From the NCBI GenBank assembly GCA_000697055.1, contig JNDT01002297.1, positions 62,001 to 126,000 of the forward strand: a stretch of 64,000 nt of DNA, in the 5' to 3' direction. The position numbers and the translations under genes are program-made. Shown here piece by piece: positions 21,313-46,882 of this stretch. The stretch's first letter is position 1, and each line of letters starts with the position of its first letter. The stretch is from Saksenaea vasiformis B4078. Lineage: Eukaryota > Mucoromycota > Mucoromycetes > Mucorales > Saksenaeaceae. The notes under the pieces were generated by a model. That model saw only the letters and a program-made list of their open reading frames with translations, was not told the origin of the DNA and searched no databases.

Positions 21313-21314
21313 TA

Positions 21315-21470
21315 CAGGATTTCGAGGTCAATTTTCGGCTGACTGAAATATTTTTTCGTGCAGCTCACAAACTAAATTCGTGCGCATCACAAAGTAATTT
21401 CGTACATATCACAAACTAAATCCGTGTGTATCACAGAATAAATTCGTGTGTATCGCAAAGCAAATTCGTG
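21315..21470 (+). repeat. Left terminal inverted repeat of the Tc1 element
   Basis: About 155 bp matching the inverse of 23060-23218 with few differences. Inside it a roughly 25-bp unit of the form CACAAAnTAAnTTCGTGnG is repeated about six times. Confidence 0.93.
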
Positions 21471-22070
21471 TCTTGATAGTTGATATCTGTTTAATTAGTT
21501 TCTGACAGTGCAGAATATATAAAGTCGTTGATTCCTTGTATCTTACTGTCTATTATCTATTGCTATCCTTGTTTTCACCACGTATCATTCAACATGCCTC
21601 GTCAACATCAAGAGAAAAAGACTTATTGTGATAAATGGATAGATCAAAAAATAGGAAAATCAGACGAGAAAATCCTTTGAGACTCTTTTTAATTGTCAAG
21701 TTCAATAAAAAAGGGATGTCGTTCTAGTACATCATTTTCTATCCTATTTATATTCAAGAATTAGAGTGGAGCTTGTAGAAAGGCCATGGTTGGATAAAAC
21801 ATGTCCTTTCGGGTGTCTTGATACTCTTATCTCGTCTGTCATATTCTTCTTGTTCTTTTCTGCTGTAATCTTGGATCAAGCGGAGTTATTTCATGTACCT
21901 GATCTTTAATTTCACTCAGATCAAGATACTCAGTTCTGCACTAATTATAGGTGACTCTCTGAGTTTATTTCATTACGGTCATTACCGATATGACTTATAC
22001 ATCAATATGAGTCGTCCTATACGACACTTATGCCAAAATTCCTCTCAGTGACAGAGAGAAGCTTGTTGAG

Positions 22071-23036
22071 ATGGTGCTCGATCAAGATATCTCAGTCCCA
22101 GAAGCTGCCAGACGCTTGCGGATCGCGACGCAGACTGCCCGAGACATTCTCAATCGCTTCCGTGACCACGGTCGCCTGGAGGACCTTCCACGCGGAGGAA
22201 GAAGAAGGAACTGCAGATTGCTCGAAGAACATTCGTTGTATATCAGGGATTGCATTGACGAGGACAATTGCATCACCTTGCAGACTCTGAAGGAGAGGCT
22301 TGAAAGCGTGGACCCCGACATGCAGAATATCTCTATCAGTGCCATTGCGAAGCACATCGGAGAAAAGCTCCGTTACACGTTGAAGCGGTCGCAGCGGTAT
22401 CCAGCAGCACGTATGTCTGAAGCCAACATCGAAAAATGGTACCGATTCGTGTCCGAATTGCCATCCCTTGGAGTGTCCTATCTAATGAATTGCATCTTCT
22501 TGGATGAAACTGGATTTAATCTTTGGACAACGAGAGGTCAAGCAAGATCCTATAAAGGACAACCAGCCTACGTGGTAGTCCCTAGCCAACGTGGCAGAAA
22601 TATAACGGTACTTGGTGCCATTAGCTACAATGGTCCGGTCTGGTTTCGTGCACATTTCGGAGGAACGACTGGTGATGTCTTCGCTGACTTCGTCAAGGAG
22701 GTTTTGAACATACTTGATCGCCAGGGTGCTCCTCCACAATTCTTGATAATGGATAACGCATCTATTCACAAAGTGGAGACTGTCAAGGAAGAGTTTGATC
22801 AATCCATTCATACACCACTCTATCTGCCTCCATATTCGCCGTTTTTAAATCCAATCGAGGAGTGCTTTTCCAAGTACAAAAACTTTGTGAAGCGTACTGC
22901 TCTCCAGAATCCAGAGCATCTTTTAGTTCGCCTGGAGGAAAGCTCTACCAATATCACTGCAGAGGATTGTCGTGGATGGATTCAGCATTCCATGAGTCAT
23001 TTTCAAGCTTGCCTTGAGAGAAGATCAATGATTTAA
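22071..23036 (+). CDS. Tc1-type DDE transposase (DD34E)
   Basis: 321 residues from the first ATG. An N-terminal helix-turn-helix (ISVPEAARRLRIATQTARDI) is followed by a second DNA-binding region. The catalytic triad is visible as FLDETGF (first Asp), IMDNASIHK (second Asp) and LNPIEECFSKYK (Glu), with 34 residues between the second Asp and the Glu, the Tc1 spacing. Residues just upstream of the ATG (PLSDREKLVE) are also coding-like in frame, but an in-frame stop about 20 codons up blocks extension; a short 5' exon or an indel is possible. The catalytic part looks complete. Confidence 0.92.
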   Translation: MVLDQDISVPEAARRLRIATQTARDILNRFRDHGRLEDLPRGGRRRNCRLLEEHSLYIRDCIDEDNCITLQTLKERLESVDPDMQNISISAIAKHIGEKLRYTLKRSQRYPAARMSEANIEKWYRFVSELPSLGVSYLMNCIFLDETGFNLWTTRGQARSYKGQPAYVVVPSQRGRNITVLGAISYNGPVWFRAHFGGTTGDVFADFVKEVLNILDRQGAPPQFLIMDNASIHKVETVKEEFDQSIHTPLYLPPYSPFLNPIEECFSKYKNFVKRTALQNPEHLLVRLEESSTNITAEDCRGWIQHSMSHFQACLERRSMI

Positions 23037-23059
23037 GATAATAAATTTGCTTTTGCTTA

Positions 23060-23218
23060 GAGGAACGAATTTGCTTTGTGATACACACGGATTTGCTTTA
23101 TCATTCACACGGATTTAGTTTGTGATATGTACGAAATTACTTTGTGATGCGCACGAATTTAGTTTGTGAGCTGCACGAAAAAATATTTCAGACAGCCGAA
23201 ATTGACCTCGAAATCCTG
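23060..23218 (-). repeat. Right terminal inverted repeat of the Tc1 element
   Basis: Mirror image of the left end, including the iterated CACAAA/TTCGTG units; begins about 25 bp after the transposase stop codon. Confidence 0.93.
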
Positions 23219-23350
23219 TACATAGCAACCAGACTTACAGTTTTTTACGTGTAATTTTGCGTCGACTGAGAATGAATTTAGCGCCGGTAAGGGAACGTTT
23301 TTGCGTTGTATAAACTCCGCGTTTCACCAAGGGTAGCGAGCTTCTTCGAT

Positions 23351-23910: not shown

Positions 23911-25623
23911 ATGTCATTTATAGGGTTTGGAGAAGTCGAAAGCTGGCGCTACTGCGTCTCAATACATCTACGAATGCATTGCAGGAGGAGAGCCTCGCTG
24001 GCCTTCATGGGTTCAGCCGGTATCTGCCGATGTACTGAGAGAGGTTGTAAGAATCTGTCTGGATTTGAAGCCGGGAATTTTCCAGCCAGCTACCCCTCAA
24101 AGCATTTCAAGATCTCCAGGTGATTACATCAGCATTCTCAAATACAGTTTACGCAGTTATGGAGAAGAACATGGCGCGGCAGAAAAAGAAACGGCCGATT
24201 TGCCCCGACTATTTTCCATATGTCCAACACCGTCAATGCGATGGCGATTCGTGAGTGTGGACGCTGCAACGCTTGCTCGGATTGTATCGCTCCCTTCACC
24301 AAGGACTTATGAGGAGAATACAGCATTATTTTATAGAGTACTTGAGTTCCAAAGGTTTGGTTATTCCAGGTACACAATCCTTTTGCAAATGACGTGACGA
24401 ACTTATACTATTTTAGTCTTGAACAAATGATGAACGGAGCACAGAACGGTGTGTTGTTTACAAACCAGTTTCTCAGCGACGGTTTCGCTGTGGATTTACA
24501 CTTTGCACGGAAAGCCAAGTCGAAAGTTTGGAACTCGAGCTAGATCTTGACGTTTTCACACAGGAAGAGGTCGAAATGATGTTTTGTCCCTGTGCCATCG
24601 TCCCTGGCATCACACAGCCCTTTACTGCGTCGTACGGTTCAGGTAACCAACCACATGAAGTCCGGCGTTGCTCAACGAAAGAATACTACTGCTACACTGG
24701 CACTACACTGGCAGTGCTTCACGACAAAAAGAATTGGAGCGGGTTGAGAGACCAGGCAGGCAGTACGGTCATCGAAACCGACCTTGCTACGAGCAAAACA
24801 CAGTCCATAGACAGATATCACCAACGAGTCGATGATATCCTCCAGCATATGGCTGTGTTCTTTCATTTTACAGACCTGACAAGGCAGAGTTACGTTTCCG
24901 TAGATATCAAGGTAAGCAGCGCGCCACAGAAGAAATGGTCAACATCTTGATCCATGGGGGGAAGAAGTACAATCGTAAAAGAAGGAAAAAAACAAAGCAA
25001 AACCGGAAGCGACGGAAGAAGCAACGAGAAGAAGAAAAACGAAGGAGAGTTCTCCGATGGGAAGGTACAAGTAACTCCTATCAGCTTATATTCAAAAATT
25101 CTTCAGAGTACCTTATCAACCAGTTTCGTCCGTAGTCCACGTTACAGCAAAGTCAATTCCAGGAAACAACGAAGATACCTTTGCTCGCGCTCGCGTTCGG
25201 TGATGCAATGTTCTTGAACAATATGAGCTACAAGGGAAAGAAGAAAGGGGTTGTTAAAAGGTGCTGGCGAAAAATCAAGGAACGAGAACGGCGACGAGAT
25301 CTTGTCGCAGTGAAAGTTGATGAGTACAATACGTCGCAGGTCTAAATTTATCATAGACGGAAGGCTTATTGTATCTAACTTATAATGTAGGTGTGCAATC
25401 CCTGTACTCAAAAGACATTGAAAGGTGTGACTACGGCCGATGGTGTCACGCACCATGGTATCCTGGCTTGCGAACATTGTAGGGTACTACGGCAGTGTGA
25501 CATTAATGCCAGCAAGAACATGTTCTGGATCGCCGAAGCCATCTGGTCTGGTCATTGGCGACCAGGAGCTTTCGCACGACACGTCACCGCTCAGAATGCG
25601 GGTCCCTATCAATGGATTTAGAT
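23911..25623 (+). pseudogene. Fanzor/TnpB-like nuclease gene, inactivated
   Basis: Plus-strand blocks in order: an N-terminal region (RWPSWVQPVSADVLREVV ... GDYISILKYSLRSYGEE), an intron at 24369-24416, FTNQFLSDGFAVDL, ITQPFTASYGSG, a basic helix rich in Lys/Arg near 24960-25050, then IPLLALAFGDAMF, VAVKVDEYNTSQ, an intron at about 25341-25390 (GT-AG) and a zinc ribbon VCNPC...ACEHC followed by CDINASKNM. VDEYNTS plus CxxC and the D-x-x-A-S-x-N RuvC-III block identify the family. Frame changes near 24510 and 24880 and an in-frame TAG at 25133 break it. It belongs to a different subfamily from the minus-strand gene at 26087-29485. Confidence 0.8.
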
Positions 25624-26086
25624 AATTACGGTGGGTTGTACCATACAAACTGGGATCGTTTACTGATGTGCTATTTTCTAGATCCCCATATTGGTAAGAC
25701 TTTTTGAAGCTTCCAAATACGATACTCACTATTGCGACATATGCGACGCTGGGAATGCTTTATGCGTCAACGAAAAACAAGGGGATGCCATCCATCGTCA
25801 AAATTAGATGGTAAGTATGCCAGACGATGCTTTTTTATAAGTGCTTCTCCATTTACTAAGTAGTGAAAATGTGGTATTTCTCTAGCGCATATCCTGTTTT
25901 TCAGCGACGTGAAAAAGCATTATCAGCAACGCAAATGTTGTTTCAAAAAACAGCAGCATAGGGACGAACGTTAAGTCTCGGCTATGTGACCAAAATCCTA
26001 GTAGCCCTGAAATCCGATTGTTAGATCATTGGCGGAAGTCAGACCCGATTCTTACGTGTCATACAAAGTGACGAGTGAGCAGTTCC
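25624..26086. other. Intergenic spacer between two convergent Fanzor genes
   Basis: 463 bp lying after the 3' ends of both Fanzor genes. TnpB and Fanzor guide RNAs usually come from the region overlapping or following the gene's 3' end, so this is where one would look. No obvious hairpin or inverted repeat was recognised by eye. Confidence 0.4.
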
Positions 26087-29000
26087 TTACTGCCTAACTG
26101 TCCTGGACAGTGCTGCCGGGCGAGATGCTAACTGGCATCCGGATTCGATGTAGCGAACAAAGATATCACGAATGTTCCGCCCGGCATTAACATCTCTATT
26201 CCAGAACTAATCAAATAGTTAAGAATCAATGAGTCAAGTCAAGCAGTACGACTTACTAGAGATGTTCTGATTCCTCGTCTATCATACGCGCACTGAGGAC
26301 ACAGTCGGATAGGATAGACAATATTTCTATAATTATTGCGAGCTATTCCTGTGTTAAAGAAAAACGTATGCAAGCAACACTAAACCATACCCGGTCGGCG
26401 CCTATCGGGGCATTCACTGCTAAGATGCAGAATCTGCTCGTCGTCATCTAAGCAATATCGACGTTTGTGCTTATGATGCCGACGCCTGATATACTTTTTA
26501 CTAGAGATTAATTTGTATGAGTCAGCTTTCCATTGTGCCCATTTGTTTCCCAAACATACCGATGATTACACAGCTGCATGTTATAGTCACGGAAATCAAC
26601 TGTGTCGTGATGACATATGCTGCATCCTTTGCTGGTTTTGTACTCGTCTACGCATATGACTGGACATCGCTGTGCTAGAACCTTGCCGAAAGGACTACAC
26701 ATGGATAATAAATATTAGTAGGATTCTTACTACCAAGAGAACTTCACCACTCTCACCTTCACTGGTAACGGTGCATACGTCTTACAGCCTCCACTATGCA
26801 GGTCGGCATCTCCGTATGCCACAAGCGCTCGGCGCTGGTCATGTCTACTGTTTTGAGCCGCACGGTGTTGACGACATTGGCGATACCGCGACTTTTTATT
26901 CTATTTTTGGACGTTTGCAACTGGAGGCTGAAACAGAGACATAATTAATAAATGAAGAGTAAGCAGTCAAATGCTCACCAGAGTTGAATTGGGATAAAAT
27001 CCCACGACCTGGTCTGCGATAACGTCCATGGTCATACTTCTGGAAGAGACCTGCAAGGCACGCCTTTCCCTGTGTCTGTAATGACGGTTGAACTCATCCA
27101 TCCTGGAAAAAATCTATTCAATACAAGCACATATTGATAAAATATTCTACAGCTACCTCCGTTTTTCGCTAAATTGTGCCGTGAGAAATCGCTGGAATTC
27201 CAGAACAGATGAAGCCGTCTTAGGGTGTTCCGACAGACGATCATAGACTTCTTGCATGTTGGCGATGTCACGATTTTTCCTTTCTATCTGAAGACTCCAG
27301 TTAAATGTGGAGCTGGCTCTAAAAAAGTATGTAGTTATTGTGCTGACTACATACAGGACCTTGTTCTTACTGATAATAACCGTTCGTGATGGAAAATGTA
27401 TGACTATTTCTTGCATCTTCGTCATGAAGATCCTCCGCTGTGTCTACGGCAGTCACAAGGGAACGAATACCTAGAAATACGTATAGTCTTTGTCAGATTC
27501 TTCATAGCAAGGAGCATACCAGGATCGATCCCCACTATTCGGGTTATTTCAGGGTCCAAATCACGTGCGACTGTTAAGCCTCTAGGCTCCTTCTTCAAAT
27601 GGTAGATGCCACGCTGCAAATTAGAGAAATCCCTGTCCCGAGGAAGGAATTGGAAGCCTCTTTGGGAGGAGGGATAAGATGCTGAGATGCGATTTTTCCG
27701 TCAGCATGCTTCAGTATAGCAAAGACTGAACTGACCTTGGTTCGGTTTGCGGGATTTGAATCTGACCGCCACCATAACACCATCGGTTTCAAAGCCATAA
27801 TCAAATTCGACTTCTGGTAGCTCATCATTGTTTACCCCTTATATGAACAAGTGTAAGGATATTACTCCCATGCAATTGAACCTAACCCAACCTTGTGCAC
27901 GGCGGCGGCGAGGCATGACCCTATCGAGGCAGAAGATTGTTTCCCAGAGCTGTTCACGGTATATCATGTCCTTGTGCGCATTATTGAAGCTACGAAAGTC
28001 CTGCAAAGGACCCTAGAGCAAGAATATCAATTTTTCATTAGGTATACTAGGCTTTTCTTTACGAAACACTTACTGCTAAGTTTTCCGGGAGATTGGTGGT
28101 GGTAATGTCTTTAAGCGCCCAGTAAAGTATTTTACCAGTTACAGGGAAATAACCTAGCACGATATTATTATTTAGTCCATGTTATGGTTCAGATATGTTC
28201 ATCAGGTTTAAGCATACCTATCTGATTTTTAGCCAATGGAATGAGAGACCAGCCTTTGCCATTGAGTTCATTGGTTTGCTTAAGCATCAATGCTGAGAGA
28301 CGAAGCATATAGGGAAGCAACCGCTGTTTTTCATCGTCATTGAGGTCTGCGGTTATATCGATATTGCCAAGACTTTCCTGGTAAACATTCTGAAACTCTC
28401 TAGCAAGCACCCAACGGTAATTAATAGTGAGGAAGAAAATAAGTCAAGATGTTGACTTATCATACCCATAAAAAACTTCAAGCTCGGTGATTGGATCATC
28501 ATCTAAAGTTGTCCATGCACTACGGTCAAAATTTTCTTGCGTTGCTATTCCCCGGACACATCGGGAAGCTATAAATTGGAAGCAAGGCGATATCACGTAA
28601 ACAACGTAAAGCAAATACATTAAGCAGTGGAGTAATACCTAGGCTTCTCGCATTATGTCGCTGATTTTGTGGGTGGTTCGCAAATAGTTCATCAAAAAAG
28701 GCAACGAAGGTTCGCTTCATATATATTTGAAGATTCGACGTGATGTGTAGGTATGTGTCTATAAATACGAAAAGTTTGTGTTTTCTTCTTCTCCAATAGT
28801 TCCACTTACTAGCAACTATTTTCCCTGCAAAGGACGGCGCCAATTCTTTTAGAATGCCGGTTAAACTGGGTAGCTCGTAGTTTACTGCAAAAATTACATG
28901 TGTATTTAGCCTTACAAATTTTATTTGTATACCAAGTGTCTCTGGATTAATTCTGCAAAGATTGAAGTAGTTTTGGAACGTTTGCTTTAGATCAACACAC

Positions 29001-29485
29001 CAACGGTAATTGGACTGTGATCAGGAGAGTAGATTTAGCTTATCCTGCAGATTTCCTGACGTCGCTACATACAAACGGTACTCGAAGGTTTGTGCCAGCA
29101 TCTCGGGCCAGGATCATTTTAAACGCGGTGCTAAAAAAAGATTCATTCTGTACAGGAGGGAAAGTCTCGAACTGGCCATCGATCCAACGATGGACGTGCA
29201 AATTGACACGGTACATTGCACACTGACAAGCGTTTGCATACTCTTCTGCCACTGAACGCGAAACACCCTACCAACATATGTTTAATATATTTGAAGGGTT
29301 TAGATGGGAATTTCATAATACAGTACTCTAAGCGGCTTGTAACCATGCTGCAGGAAATTACAAAGTTTTAACTTCCGAACGATCAAATAGTCGCGCCCAG
29401 GTAACTGAGAGATAGGGCTGTTCTGGTACCCATATCGTCTCCTGCGGGGTGGGGGCTCTTCAACTTCTGGGCGTTGTCTGTCCAT
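26087..29485 (-). CDS. Fanzor (eukaryotic TnpB-type RNA-guided nuclease), 19 exons, apparently intact
   Basis: Exons: 29485-29344, 29251-29073, 29014-28933, 28884-28810, 28758-28639, 28568-28466, 28399-28218, 28153-28074, 28012-27892, 27837-27736, 27681-27520, 27470-27371, 27318-27157, 27102-26979, 26900-26734, 26694-26560, 26500-26391, 26348-26257, 26206-26087. They join into 2358 nt (785 residues) without a stop, all 18 junctions GT-AG and in phase. RuvC-I is IVGIDPGIRSLVTAVD (Asp448; an intron splits the DPG glycine codon). The canonical RuvC-II position reads VAYGDADL, without a Glu; a Glu sits about 43 residues on in VCVDEYKTS-type ICVDEYKTSKGCSIC (Glu651), the displaced position described for Fanzors. 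The zinc ribbon is C658/C661 with C732/C735 (CPQC), separated by a basic 70-residue insertion. RuvC-III is WNRDVNAGRNIRDIF (Asp751). The basic N-terminus PPPRRRRYG could be a nuclear signal. Function is inferred from the family: RNA-guided DNA cleavage. Expression is not shown. Confidence 0.88.
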
Positions 29486-30656
29486 GTTTGATTATTAAAA
29501 AGGAAGAGAGAATTGTTGCCAAATGGTTAGATGGGACAGATGTGATTGGAGGATGGTCGTGTCTCATCGGAACATCCGAAAGTTTAGTAAATGCTGCACG
29601 TTCGCACATCACGCGTCATTTCTTTCAAACGACCCCTTCTAAATAAAATGAGTGTGTCCGCTTTAGAAGCGTTTATGCTATCGTACAGCGGCGATCATTT
29701 CAATCGATCATGTTTCTTAGAACATAGGCGGCCGCTCAAACGTTGCATATTTATTCGTCATCTTTAGATTCGGAAAACAAACTCATATCTACAAACCTTC
29801 TGAGCATCCGCCATTTCGTAGGACTGCTGTTTCGTTCTTCATGATGCAATACTGTTTCGAATAGATAGGCTCAGGAGCCAGAAAGCAGATAAGACATGGG
29901 TAATACAACAATGTTGGATCAAGAGAATACTGATCATGCGTTTTTAAGAAAAGGCATTTGGTCTGTGCAGCTCATATATCAGCCTACCATCCATTTTACT
30001 GTTGTGAAAAATATTTAACGGTAAAGGAACAAAGATTAAGAACTTCTCTTCCTGTCAGACTCTTGTATCTCATTAACTGTTGTCGTTACACCACTGGTGT
30101 GGTAGATCTTCTTATTTCGCCACTCATTTTTTGCTGCAATTGCTGAAAATAGGGCTCAAAGGGATTTGCTACTACCTCGTCTTCTTCGAAAATCTCCTCT
30201 GAAACGTTGGCATCAATGGAAGCTAATACTTGTTCATATGCATGTGGTCGTTATGTTACTATTGCGGAGTGTTCATAGGTGACGGACTGATGAATAAAAG
30301 GGTTTAGAGTTGGTGGAGTGAGGCACCTAATTTTGGAATTCCGTCGCCATAGAAGTCCGAAGATTAACTGGAGGTATTCATTCGCTGATTTCTGATTCCG
30401 AAGATTAACTTGTCATTTTTATTGACGCAGGCGAGCTTAAGCCTCTGCATTGTGCGGTGTTTAAATACCTTCGCCAATAAAAGTTTGACCGACGTCACTT
30501 TTTGAAGTCAAGGAAACATTTTAGTTATTTTTCTCCGAACTAACACTCAAAGATACTGTTATTATTGATGAATTTGTAGATGTTGTTTTATACGGAAGAA
30601 TCTTCAACTACCCGACGACAACATCGATACTCCTGTGCGTTTATCTGAGTACAGCT
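29486..30656. other. Gene-poor stretch upstream of the Fanzor gene
   Basis: No gene recognised. A short plus-strand frame at 29449-29646 overlaps the Fanzor 5' end and has no domain. A 12-bp phrase (CGAAGATTAACT) occurs twice at 30358 and 30398. Confidence 0.35.
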
Positions 30657-31395
30657 ACGACAACTGCCGTTGGTTAGACAGGCAATCTGTTCCATTCCGG
30701 AGAGGAATGGCGCCTTGGATTTATTATTATCTCCAAGGTGAATGCTTGATGCTGCGACGTGGCAACTTGAAAGGCTCAAGGGTGATGCCTTGATCTTTCA
30801 CACGAGCACTGACAGTGCGTTCTTCGCATGGCTTGAAGGTTTCGGCCGACACGTCGTGTCTAGCACGCTGCCTGTTTTGGACATTCGCCAATACTAGTGT
30901 TTGTGGTATGGCAACGTAAGCATCAAAACGATATCTATATGTGCACAGAGACATCATCTAATTCCTGTTTTTGTGTGTTAGGTTGATTCATGTTTGTGTC
31001 GAGCAACGACAACTACCGTCGGTTAGACAGGCAATCTGTTCCATTCCGGAGAGGAATGGCGCCTTGGATTTATTATTATCTCCAAGGTGAATGCTTGGTG
31101 CTGCGACGTGGCAACTTGAAAGGCTCAAGGGTGATGCCTTGATCTTTCACACAAGCACTGACAGTGCGTTCTTCGCATGGCTTGAAGGTTTCGGCCGACA
31201 CGTCGTGTCTAGCACGCTGCCTGTTTTGGACATTCGCCAATACTAGTGTTTGTGGTATGGCAACGTAAGCATCAAAACGATGTCTATATGTGCACAGAGA
31301 CATCATCTAATTCCCTGTTTTTGTGTGTTAGGTTGATTCATGTTTGTGTCGAGCAACGACAACTACCGTCGGTTAGACAGGCAATCTGTCTCATT
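30657..31395. repeat. Tandem duplication, unit about 350 bp, 2.1 copies
   Basis: The segment starting ACGACAACT at 30657 recurs at 31006 and, for about 40 bp, at 31356. The first two copies (30657-31005 and 31006-31355) are almost identical, differing by a few substitutions and one extra C. Each holds the same 76-residue minus-strand frame, which has no recognised domain. Confidence 0.93.
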
Positions 31396-33524
31396 CTGGA
31401 GTATGCTAGCTGCCAAGAGCTAAGGTTGCTAAACATGTGTGACCATTCTGTGTGCTTGCAAACTGCATACCGTTCCACAGTAATTTGGAAAAAAAGTTTG
31501 TCACCGCTCTTCGTTTTCTCATTTTCTTTTTCGAAATGAATTGCATTATGTTTAGTTTTCTGCTTCTAAATTTGTAGAATCATTGAGTGAGATCTATTAC
31601 TGTCCGGGTAAACGCTGATTTCCGTGGAGAAAAGGAGTGGAAGACGAGGTTTTTTCTTGACAAGCAGCCAACATAAGCAAGATTATATAAAAGACATGTC
31701 TAAGAGTAACAGCTCTATTTTTTATTGGCCTCTGAGAGTGGCCATCACACGTGTAAAAGAAAGAGAGAAAAGGTCCATTTGGCTCCCATATCTATGTTCC
31801 GTTACTGTTGACCACTGTGATTTATACAACGCTAATACAATGCTAAGGCACTGGAGAACATGGTGTTCCCAGTAATAGATGTCGCTAGTTGATGAAATTA
31901 TTTGTCAGTCGGTCCTATGACAGTACTTGTTGGCTGCGTTCCGACTCCCAATGCGACAAGATCTTCCGTAGCTTGAAAAGTTGAATTGATGATATTGGCG
32001 CTTTCCACGTAACGATGACGAGGTTTTCACCGATGTTTCTTAAGCGTTTTCGCGAATTGGCTCCCATTTGCGTGTTGTTTAACTTGTTAAAATGAGAATC
32101 TCTTGCGTACAGTTTTGGTGCTAGCTGTCGAGCGTGTTGTTGTGTGGTGTACATTGAGACCTGCATATACCCGCTGCTGTCATCATCCTCTTCACTGTTT
32201 GCTACCGTACCCGGTTGGACGTTGCGAGATAACTGTGGTTGCAATATATATGCCAAGCAAACGGTGTGATCGACAGGAAAATCCTTAAACAGATGATATG
32301 TGCGGCTGAGAAACTGAAACGAAGTCATGATTGGGCAGAGAGACCTTTATTTAGCGAGGTACAAAGGCACGATGATCTGTATTGAGCTTCTTTAGGTGCT
32401 CTTTTAGACGAAGGTGACACCTTCCACTTCCTCGTTCTCATTGTGCACAAAATGGATGTCTCGTTGCGGTAGTTGGCCAATGCCTGATCTAGGTCTTCAA
32501 CCTGTGGCGATACAAAGAACAACCGATTTTTCTTGCAAGCGATCCAAGGTGAGGATTCATTTTTGTGATAGTTGATTTTTTTTATATATCGCATCGTCAT
32601 GTCTGTATCTTATGTCTCCAGTTGCTGAGGCTTTGTAGCATGAATTCGGATCGATCCTTATATATCGAAGACTTGTTTGGACGTAGGGCTTGTAATACTG
32701 AAGTGATTGCTACACTAAAACTTCGAAAGTGCGAGCTTGAGCGTTGGCTATGAGTTAGAAAATACTTTGATGATCGTTTGGATATCGTATGCCGGTGGAT
32801 CCATAACCATTCCTTTTCCCGAAATCATTGGCATCATTAGATAGCGGAGGCTATCTTGATTACTCTTATGTGTGTAGTCGGGTCTTAGGAAATAACAGAC
32901 CGGAATCTCGGATATTCATCTTCCGCGACAGTTTTCCACGTCTCTGGTTCAACCGTAGTATTAATATAGTTTACAATGTACGCTACGCTATGGTATATGA
33001 TACGGGGCATCAACAGATCTTCCGGGACGCCTCACACTAGCATGTAGGTCAGTTCGTACTTTTTTTCGCAGTAAATATCTCCTTCTCCTCACCTTCCAGG
33101 CAGAAGCATAATTCTTAATGAGGATACCTTAGCTTTATGATGCGACTGGTGAACAAGCAGAGATGCGTCTTTAAAGGACAAATAGATCTCGGCTTCTTAT
33201 TAGGACCTGCAACTAAGCGCTCATTTATTGTAATTTATAACATTCAACACTATTATATTTTGAAGAGTGCGCTCGGTCTCGGTTGATAAGACCGCCGATG
33301 GTCATAACCCGTATGTATTTGAAATGTGTGAAATCATCCATCGCTTTTCATAGATTTCCTGTTAAGCTCCAGATTCTCCGTTGTGATTGAATTTGAAAGT
33401 TACGATACATGTTATCTGTTCAAAGTGGCGAAAGAAAAGAGGCGGTCTACGCAGGTCGTCATCGATGAATCTATTTAGATGGTATACGATCTTCTACATC
33501 TAACAAATGAGAACAAGTTTCGGT
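31396..33524. other. Gene-poor stretch with unexplained minus-strand frames
   Basis: Minus-strand frames at 31915-32328 (with LVIVTWKAPISSIQLFKLR) and 32325-32600 (PQVEDLDQALANYRNE) look protein-like but match no family recognised here and cannot be joined. Probably relics of a mobile or lineage-specific gene. Confidence 0.35.
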
Positions 33525-44019: not shown

Positions 44020-45095
44020 GCGGTTACACACGATGGTCTGACGCAAGAAGACGTTATATGAGGTATAAACTACTATCTCAGAGCAAGTTTATTCATATGT
44101 CAAAAACTGCAACTATGCTTCCACTGCCGCCGTTCCCGTTAGTTTTTTTAAGCGTTCCTGGAACTCTGCGGTGCTGTTTGTATTTGGATAGGGTTCGCTA
44201 GGAACATCTTTACCCAGGAATTTGCATAATCTGTCCCAACCCTCACCAAGATCTAGCTCGATCAACCGTTCGGGTGGTACGGTGCGACGAACCCATTCAT
44301 TATGCTCTACAAATTTCCTTTTGATTGCTTCTTCGTCCTCAATCAGTGCAGGATTTCCAAATGCGCCATCCAGGACTACAGTGTTGACCATTTCATGAAG
44401 ATCGGTTGATTTTGGGTGAAAAGAAAATTTTGTTTGGCTAGCCGGGTAGATGCTGTTCTTTACTGAACGGTACCAGCTGTCAGGATCGCGAGTCGTCAGA
44501 ATCACCTTAGCATCAGGATATTTCTTCATTAATGGCTCCAGAAAAGACACGGTCGGCCAATCGACTGCAGCAGTATAGCCCTCATAGGCCTCGTCCCAAT
44601 CATGTTCTTCCTCCGGGTGTTCATACGCTCGCTTGAAGAATAAAGGATCCTTCTCATGATCAAGTGTAAAAGTAACCATGTGATGAGTCTTGTACCTGCA
44701 TATCATGCAATTAGTTCACTTTGGCCTTTAACCTCGGGATTCACTCGTTTACTGTCTATTTACCCAAGCATGTCTAATGCAACGCGCAGACTGTGTGTGC
44801 CAGTACGGCCAAAGCCTGCTCCAATAACTTCAAGAGGTGCCATTCCGTTTAATTTGATACTAAAGAAAAACAGCAGGTCAATGTCGAGCTTTTTTATATT
44901 GTTTGAGGCACGGCTAAAATAATGGTTCGGATCTCAGGAAAGCCGTCATGCGCTGGACGGCCAACGGCTCAAAATCCAGCCGACACAAATCAGCTTCCGA
45001 TTGACCGCGCTACGCTTTACTGTTCATTTGAACATTAATATACGCTATTCCTAAATAACCTCTGTGTCTATGAAGAAATCAACTTTGCGCTAAGA
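44020..45095. repeat. Duplicated segment, unit 1 (sulfotransferase with flanks)
   Basis: Starts in a GCGGTTACACACGATG sequence and extends upstream of the gene to about 45095 (GAAATCAACTTTGCGC); the same order of sequences recurs at about 45836-46882. Coding parts are nearly identical and flanks diverged by small indels. Confidence 0.85.
44113..44843 (-). CDS. P-loop sulfotransferase-like protein (Sulfotransfer_4 type), copy 1
   Basis: Exons 44843-44764 and 44695-44113; 663 nt, 220 residues. The N-terminus EVIGAGFGRTGTHSLRVALD holds the 5'-phosphosulfate-binding loop; downstream are YPDAKVILTTRDPDSWYRSV (3'-phosphate-binding strand and Arg) and the C-terminal ERLIELDLGEGWDRLCKFLG helix with PYPNTN. 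Such fungal proteins are often mislabelled NAD-dependent epimerases; their acceptor is unknown. A near-identical copy lies 1.8 kb away at 45929-46656. Confidence 0.9.
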
Positions 45096-45835: not shown

Positions 45836-46882
45836 CTTGCGGTTACACACGATGATTTGACGCAAAAAGACGTTATATGAGGTGTAAAATATCTCAGAGC
45901 GAACTTATTCATATGTCGAAATTTGTAACTATGGTTCCGCCGCCACCGTTCCCTTAATTCTGACGTGGTCCTGGAACTCTGCGGTGCTGTTTGTATTTGG
46001 ATAAGGTTCGCTAGGAACATCTTTACCCAGGAATTTGCATAATCTGTCCCAATCCTCACCAAGATCTAGCTCGATCAACCGTTCGGGTGGTACGGTGCGA
46101 CGAACCCATTCATTATGCTCTACAAATTTCCTTTTGATTGCTTCTTCGTCTTCAATCAGTGCAGGATTTCCAAATGCGCCATCCAGGACTACAGTGTTGA
46201 CCATTTCATGAAGATCGGTTGATTTTGGGTGAAAAGAAAATTTTGTTTGGCTAGCCGGGTAGATGCTGTCCTTTACTGAACGGTACCAGCTGTCAGGATC
46301 GCGAGTCGTCAGAATCACCTTAGCATCAGGATATTTCTCCATTAATGGCTCCAGAAAAGACACGGTCGGCCAATCGACTGCAGCAGTATAGCCCTCATAG
46401 GCCTCGCCCCAATCATGTTCTTCCTCCGGGTGTTCATATGCTCGCTTGGAGAATAAGGGGTCTTTCTGATGATCAAGTATAAAAGTAACCATGTGATGAG
46501 CCTTGTACCTGCGTACCATGCAATTAGTTTACTTTGACTTTTAACCTCGGGATTCACTCGTTTACTGTCTACTTACCCAAGCATGTCTAATGCAACGCAC
46601 AGACTGTGTGTGCCAGTACGGCCAAAGCCTGCTCCAATAACTTCAAGAGGTGCCATCCTGTTCAAATTGATACTAAAGGAAAACAGCAGGTCGATGTAGA
46701 GCTTTTTATATTGTTGAGGCACGGCTAAAATAATAAACCGGTTTCAGGGAAGTTGCCATGCGCTGGGCTCAAGATCGACACGAATCAGCTTCCGGTTATG
46801 CGCTGTAACCGTTCACTGGATGTTAATATATGCTATTACCAAATAACTTCTGTGTCTATGAAGAAATCAAGTTTGCGCTGGC
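45836..46882. repeat. Duplicated segment, unit 2 (sulfotransferase with flanks)
   Basis: Second copy of the 44020-45095 segment in the same orientation, covering 3' flank, gene and about 220 bp of upstream sequence. Confidence 0.85.
45929..46656 (-). CDS. P-loop sulfotransferase-like protein (Sulfotransfer_4 type), copy 2
   Basis: Exons 46656-46577 and 46508-45929; 660 nt, 219 residues. Same P-loop (GAGFGRTGTHSL), same DPDSWYRSV block and same intron position as copy 1. The two differ at a small number of residues; the last dozen residues differ most (DHVRIKGTVAAEP here against QERLKKLTGTAAVEA). Both copies look functional. Acceptor substrate unknown. Confidence 0.9.

Follow-up and report, generated by a model that had tools for sequence, protein, structure and literature searches.

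A probable decayed copy of a multi-copy Fanzor transposon in the Mucorales fungus Saksenaea vasiformis

Fanzor1 families are known in Rhizopus, Phycomyces and Mucor (PMC3627910). As the accounts of them in that paper have it, the elements ROr-4, PBl-3 and MCi-4 share with the family analysed here a Fanzor gene in Mucorales, inverted ends and the lack of a transposase of their own; compared by description, they differ in their 9-bp target duplications and in MuDR-type inverted repeats like those of confirmed MuDR elements, whereas our family has 8-bp duplications and short, imperfect inverted ends of about 22 bp. According to the account of Spu-1/SpuFz1 from Spizellomyces punctatus (PMC10432273), this element is like ours in its many copies, in the short region from the stop codon to the right end and in a one-sided motif in the left flank. 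It has a single open frame, 30-33 bp repeats and TA duplications, whereas the gene of our family has 18 introns, and its motif adjoins the element, whereas ours lies 8 nt from the duplication. The MULE-Mucorales group, as outlined in PMC6446971, has a SWIM domain, as has a neighbour protein of related Fanzor subfamilies in our genome; its 10-bp duplications and 40-bp inverted repeats are unlike the ends of our family. We found no description of this family in the titles and opening abstract lines of the Fanzor papers among the matches listed, which come mostly from outside the subscription literature. Since Fanzor1 in Mucorales has already been described (PMC3627910, in the account cited), we regard it as a new family of an established type.

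The window, the whole stretch of 64,000 nucleotides that we analysed, is part of one contig (C577) of a 38.7-Mb assembly of 666 contigs, which was searched for further copies. We consider it probable that the locus (Table 1) is a decayed copy of a multi-copy, Fanzor-only DNA transposon of this Mucorales fungus, with a life cycle that would combine a guide RNA and a transposase acting in trans. The genome contains 40 matches to the final 114 bp of the element and thus about 40 copies of the right end, which is near-identical among them; the left end gives 38 rows, with some elements yielding two, and the part encoding the RuvC domain gives at least 184 exon-wise matches. For the right ends, 37 of the 40 rows were used, two that end short of the element end being excluded, and the window was added by hand to give 38; for the left ends, 33 of the 38 rows were listed and 27 used in the motif, duplication and guide tests, the rest lacking, for example, a clean boundary.

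Table 1. Features of the window copy and its flanks. Positions are those of the window.
Feature	Positions	Strand	Basis
Whole transposon copy, 4,458 bp	25980..30437	-	Sharp ends in copy alignments; right end = 25980, left end = 30437
Target duplication, right end, GAGACTTA (gene orientation)	25972..25979	-	Ends and flanks of the window copy
Conserved noncoding right end, candidate guide-RNA region	25980..26086	-	92.2% mean pairwise identity (figure takes in one base past the element) versus 85.3% in introns; folding negative
Fanzor-like gene of 19 exons and 18 introns, with lesions in exons 15 and 16	26087..29485	-	Single-sequence model and copy alignment
Exon 16 with one-base frameshift, 135 nt	26560..26694	-	134 nt in 16 copies, 133 in two
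Intron 15, corrected, 62 nt, phase 0 (stop-free model: 39 nt)	26695..26756	-	Sister copies
Premature TAG, exon 15, codon 595	26901..26903	-	Sense codon in 18/18 other copies covering the site
Intron 14, corrected, 51 nt (stop-free model: 78 nt)	26928..26978	-	Sister copies
Left end with GTTAATCTTCGG subterminal repeats	30340..30437	-	Window copy without part of the outermost stretch
Target duplication, left end, GAGGCTTA (gene orientation), 7/8 match	30438..30445	-	Ends and flanks
Left-flank target motif CACCGC, 8 nt before the duplication	30454..30459	-	Sequence and family motif

When 20 stretches, the window locus included, were compared for their ends, similarity among the fetched copies was found to stop at two common points in all copies that reach them. 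Thirteen pairs of left and right family flanks are identical at 8/8 positions, and in six of these pairs the two ends lie on a single contig; one of the 13 uses the right end of another pair and is probably a chance match. At a threshold of 7/8 there are 24 pairs, against a shuffled mean of 3.1 and maximum of 10. Both ends lie on one contig in 11 elements, of which six have an exact duplication, the window copy one of 7/8 and four mismatched flanks; the left flank of one of these four fits a right end on another contig. An exact 8-bp duplication joins L025 (C458) and L053 (C573), a left flank from one element and a right flank from the other, which suggests a chimeric assembly or recombination between copies. 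In the family surveys of motif and duplication the window flanks are slightly offset, so that the window motif looks shifted there; the window duplication was taken from the printed ends of the copy.

The sequence-only reading had recognised a Fanzor-type protein, and in this we concur: the product has DPG, a Glu six residues before CxxC and a third Asp in WNRDVNA. DPG in RuvC1 is present in all seven sister proteins with an uninterrupted frame and in a stop-free model of the window gene; the rearranged Glu six residues before the first CxxC is found in 7/7 sisters, and in the window lies beyond the stop and frameshift; the third catalytic Asp, after the ribbon, is kept in six of the seven and replaced by His in one. 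DPG and the rearranged Glu are given as the Fanzor fingerprint in PMC10711439, and the search pattern published there, as stated in the text, has 12-18 residues between the CxxC pairs and 4-8 to the Asp. All eight proteins fall outside the strict ribbon pattern, with CxxC pairs that start 74 residues apart and a ribbon much longer than the pattern; we kept the Fanzor name because the pattern is a search tool and not a definition.

Profile evidence for the protein is thin. PF07282 matches the window protein weakly (E 7.1e-5; 23.3 bits, below the 26.3-bit cut-off) and is found in three of four alignment members at E up to 1 (best E 2.1e-5), and NCBIfam holds no match for the family. Solved Fanzor structures were matched by sequence neither with the single protein nor with the alignment, which gave two unrelated chance hits only. 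The wider homologues comprise one Rhizomucor pusillus protein (27%), and none scored at E up to 1 in a homologue search with the family alignment. The genome itself is rich in PF07282 genes, with at least 137 matches (150 of 388 candidates scored). We file the protein as a Fanzor, and its class is probably Fanzor1. The strongest competing explanation, to which we give a small but real chance, is that the family protein is in practice no RNA-guided nuclease and has another role for the transposon, such as DNA binding or regulation; the weak profile match, the ribbon far longer than usual and the failure of folding to find a structured right-end RNA would suit it, whereas the retention of all catalytic positions in six of seven sister proteins, and selection on the protein together with a conserved right end, argue against it.

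In pairwise comparisons of 12 copies, the introns are on average 85.3% identical and the stretch just before the ATG 83.6%; downstream of the stop, identity averages 92.2%, a figure that takes in one base past the element. Conservation of the right end beyond that of the introns is as expected for a putative guide-RNA scaffold or for a transposon end. Folding gives no support for RNA structure in the right end: among 32 predicted pairs one is changed on both sides, and one of five single folds has a z score of -2.07, the other four ranging from -0.43 to 0.20. A search of the window against Rfam at gathering thresholds found no match.

No transposase was found inside the window element. A SWIM-domain, MULE-like protein lies within 5 kb of 16 of the 37 loci listed for the more distant Fanzor subfamilies (those with a best piece below 62% identity), in 12 of the 16 head to head, and within 5 kb of none of the 32 listed close loci, many of whose contigs end within the element. 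The SWIM domain scores above its cut-off in L090 and below it in L089 and L091; for the MULE domain the match is weak (E 0.075). In L089 (863-1958, minus strand) and L090 (7854-8501, plus strand) the MULE-like protein stands head to head with Fanzor pieces on the opposite strand, both genes being inside one repeated unit; such a pair may be an autonomous, two-gene element. The ends of this MULE-Fanzor family are unlike those of the window family. An autonomous partner was also sought by the subterminal repeat, which gave 24 matches on 15 contigs, every one of them a contig with a left end. The 8-bp duplication of the window family falls within the general MULE range of 8-11 bp, as quoted in PMC6446971. 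Because a MULE transposase was found neither in the element nor in a same-ended partner among the listed loci, we do not file the family as a MULE; a MULE acting on it in trans is likely.

In the cycle that we propose, working sister copies would make the Fanzor protein, partnered by an RNA whose transcription would run from the right end into the adjoining flank, with that flank as the guide. The complex would cut the empty site after excision, repair would copy the element back, and strand transfer would be left to a transposase in trans, most likely of the MULE type. The window copy would supply no full nuclease, yet could still yield guide RNA and be moved. Several observations weigh against this picture: the PF07282 score of the window protein, the lack of a sequence match to solved Fanzor structures, the folding results, the weak MULE domain, the 32 listed close loci with no MULE-like protein nearby, and the place of the target motif in the left flank, which lies 8 nt from the duplication and so would not adjoin a guide that began at the right end. 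Because a single genome offers dozens of copies, it provides the material to test the right end, the target motif and how Fanzors are connected with MULE-type transposases.

The left flank carries the motif CTCCG[AC], followed by eight arbitrary nucleotides and the duplication, in 19 of 27 left ends. CCG[AC] starts at -22 to -19 in 19 of the 27 flanks, whereas 2,000 shuffles averaged 0.75 such flanks and never exceeded 5, and column -20 of the motif reaches 1.29 bits against a null maximum of 0.65 (500 trials). A mirrored motif was not seen in 37 right flanks, where the sole preference is a C at the first base (33/37); the motif is one-sided, and therefore the orientation of insertion is fixed too. 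In the MULE-Fanzor family, CCA is found 6-13 nt from the left end in nine of ten left flanks (10 of 13 left ends used, three being without an anchor) and, judged by eye, sits near the edge of an apparent 8-10 bp duplication. For Spu-1, PMC10432273 describes a conserved CA upstream of the left repeat and a recognition motif CATA; in our own reading, the CA and the TA duplication together would make up CATA. A one-sided motif at a fixed distance offers a direct handle on what Fanzor does for its transposon.

The plain reading of the motif is a preference on the part of the transposase, or of a host factor whose lead the transposase takes. That the Fanzor complex helps to pick the insertion site, with the left-flank motif as its recognition motif and the 8-bp duplication as a staggered cut, seems to us improbable. 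If CCG is taken as the motif, the duplication covers target bases 10-17; PMC10432273 describes cuts by MmeFz2 that follow bases 17-18 on one strand and bases 9-14 on the opposite one, and gives CCG as the recognition motif of NlovFz2. Against it, no right flank fits the target of another copy better than shuffled guides do. Insertion guided by the right flank of another copy was rejected with a best match of 11/16 (null mean of the best 10.8); the nine matches of 10 or more are high and within the null (mean 5.2, sd 2.4, maximum 11, 100 shuffles), and this test gave no perfect 8-base seed. Transposons aimed by a relative of Cas12 exist, and Fanzor-aimed insertion, if true, would be their eukaryotic counterpart.

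The sequence-only reading had described an intact gene of 19 exons, with 18 GT-AG introns, no stop and 785 codons, and with Asp448, Glu651 and Asp751 in a complete RuvC domain followed by a zinc ribbon. The gene and its intron count hold. Our first hand-built stop-free model, on the minus strand, runs from ATG to TAA through 18 GT-AG introns and encodes 793 aa with D456, E659 and D759; it thus reproduces the three residues, with all numbers 8 higher, and any difference between the two stop-free models is probably confined to the part before the first Asp. The introns exceed what chance would give: 278 of 300 intron instances among 20 aligned copies keep a GT start and an AG end, and between copies the length of several introns changes by a number of nucleotides that is no multiple of three. 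The stop-free frame does not hold: once introns 14 and 15 follow the sister copies, the TAG and the frameshift appear, and the gene can no longer be called intact. Both lesions fall ahead of the zinc ribbon and of two catalytic residues, the rearranged Glu and the third Asp.

The 793-aa model was dropped because the aligned sister copies support neither of its splice choices at introns 14 and 15. Among the other copies, eight sites vary in the 27 nt that follow the corrected intron 14 and seven of the eight are third codon positions; these nucleotides are therefore coding and the intron is 51 nt long. An intact window gene that uses splice sites of its own, namely a later acceptor of intron 14, by which the stop and nine residues are lost, together with a later donor of intron 15, is accordingly very unlikely in our view: such sites are present and yield the 793-aa frame, but two changes are needed, neither backed by the sisters, the 27 nt counted as intron vary as coding sequence does, and the required intron 15 has 39 nt, whereas the shortest other model intron has 42 nt. 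An intron-rich pseudogene can thus pass as intact if its splice sites are picked from a single sequence. Scored against the family consensus, the window copy has approximately 16 private replacement changes, 5 silent ones and 1 stop; a similar surplus of replacement changes is found in several other copies, the pattern expected for decay of copies after insertion.

With the corrected introns, 7 of 12 full-length copies have an uninterrupted frame (L013, L015, L016, L018, L019, L020 and L023) and the other five, the window copy among them, are interrupted. Altered splice sites occur in four of these seven, in one or two introns each, and in L023 the third Asp is missing. Over exons 1-15 of the 12 copies, codon positions 1, 2 and 3 have mean pairwise identities of 93.1, 94.4 and 81.3%, respectively; because divergence is concentrated at position 3, the codon comparison demonstrates past purifying selection on the family protein. 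A gene recently active, as had been proposed, may fit the family, with its near-identical right ends, exact 8-bp duplications and uninterrupted sisters, but not this gene. Domestication by the host and retention for a cellular function, in line with the earlier description of the gene as host-adapted, is scarcely credible: many introns and selection on the family protein would agree with it, but the gene is one of about 40 transposon copies, with inverted ends and target duplications in the family and lesions in the window copy.

The window holds further repeats and genes. The C-terminal part of a second, different Fanzor-like gene lies at 25136-25621 (plus strand), perhaps starting near 24000, in two exons and end to end with the first gene; it has the motifs VDEYNTSQVC, CEHC and DINASKN and a TNB domain that scores 31.9 bits, above the cut-off of PF07282. 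At least 187 exon-wise matches in the genome belong to its lineage, and the nearest others are 59-70% identical per exon. A DNA transposon at 21313-23220 with long inverted ends (arms of 137 and 22 nt) and a 341-aa open frame that matches DDE_3 (E 5.6e-30) looks Tc1/mariner-like. Just beyond the left end of the Fanzor element, positions 30615-31401 hold a tandem repeat of about 349 bp in two full copies (97% alike) and a partial third. Two near-identical open frames of 200 and 199 aa stand in tandem on the minus strand at 44113-44715 and 45929-46528, perhaps through a recent gene duplication. Furthermore, the closest relatives of a 708-aa open frame in the window are two Apophysomyces proteins (68 and 65%), followed by those of other Mucorales.
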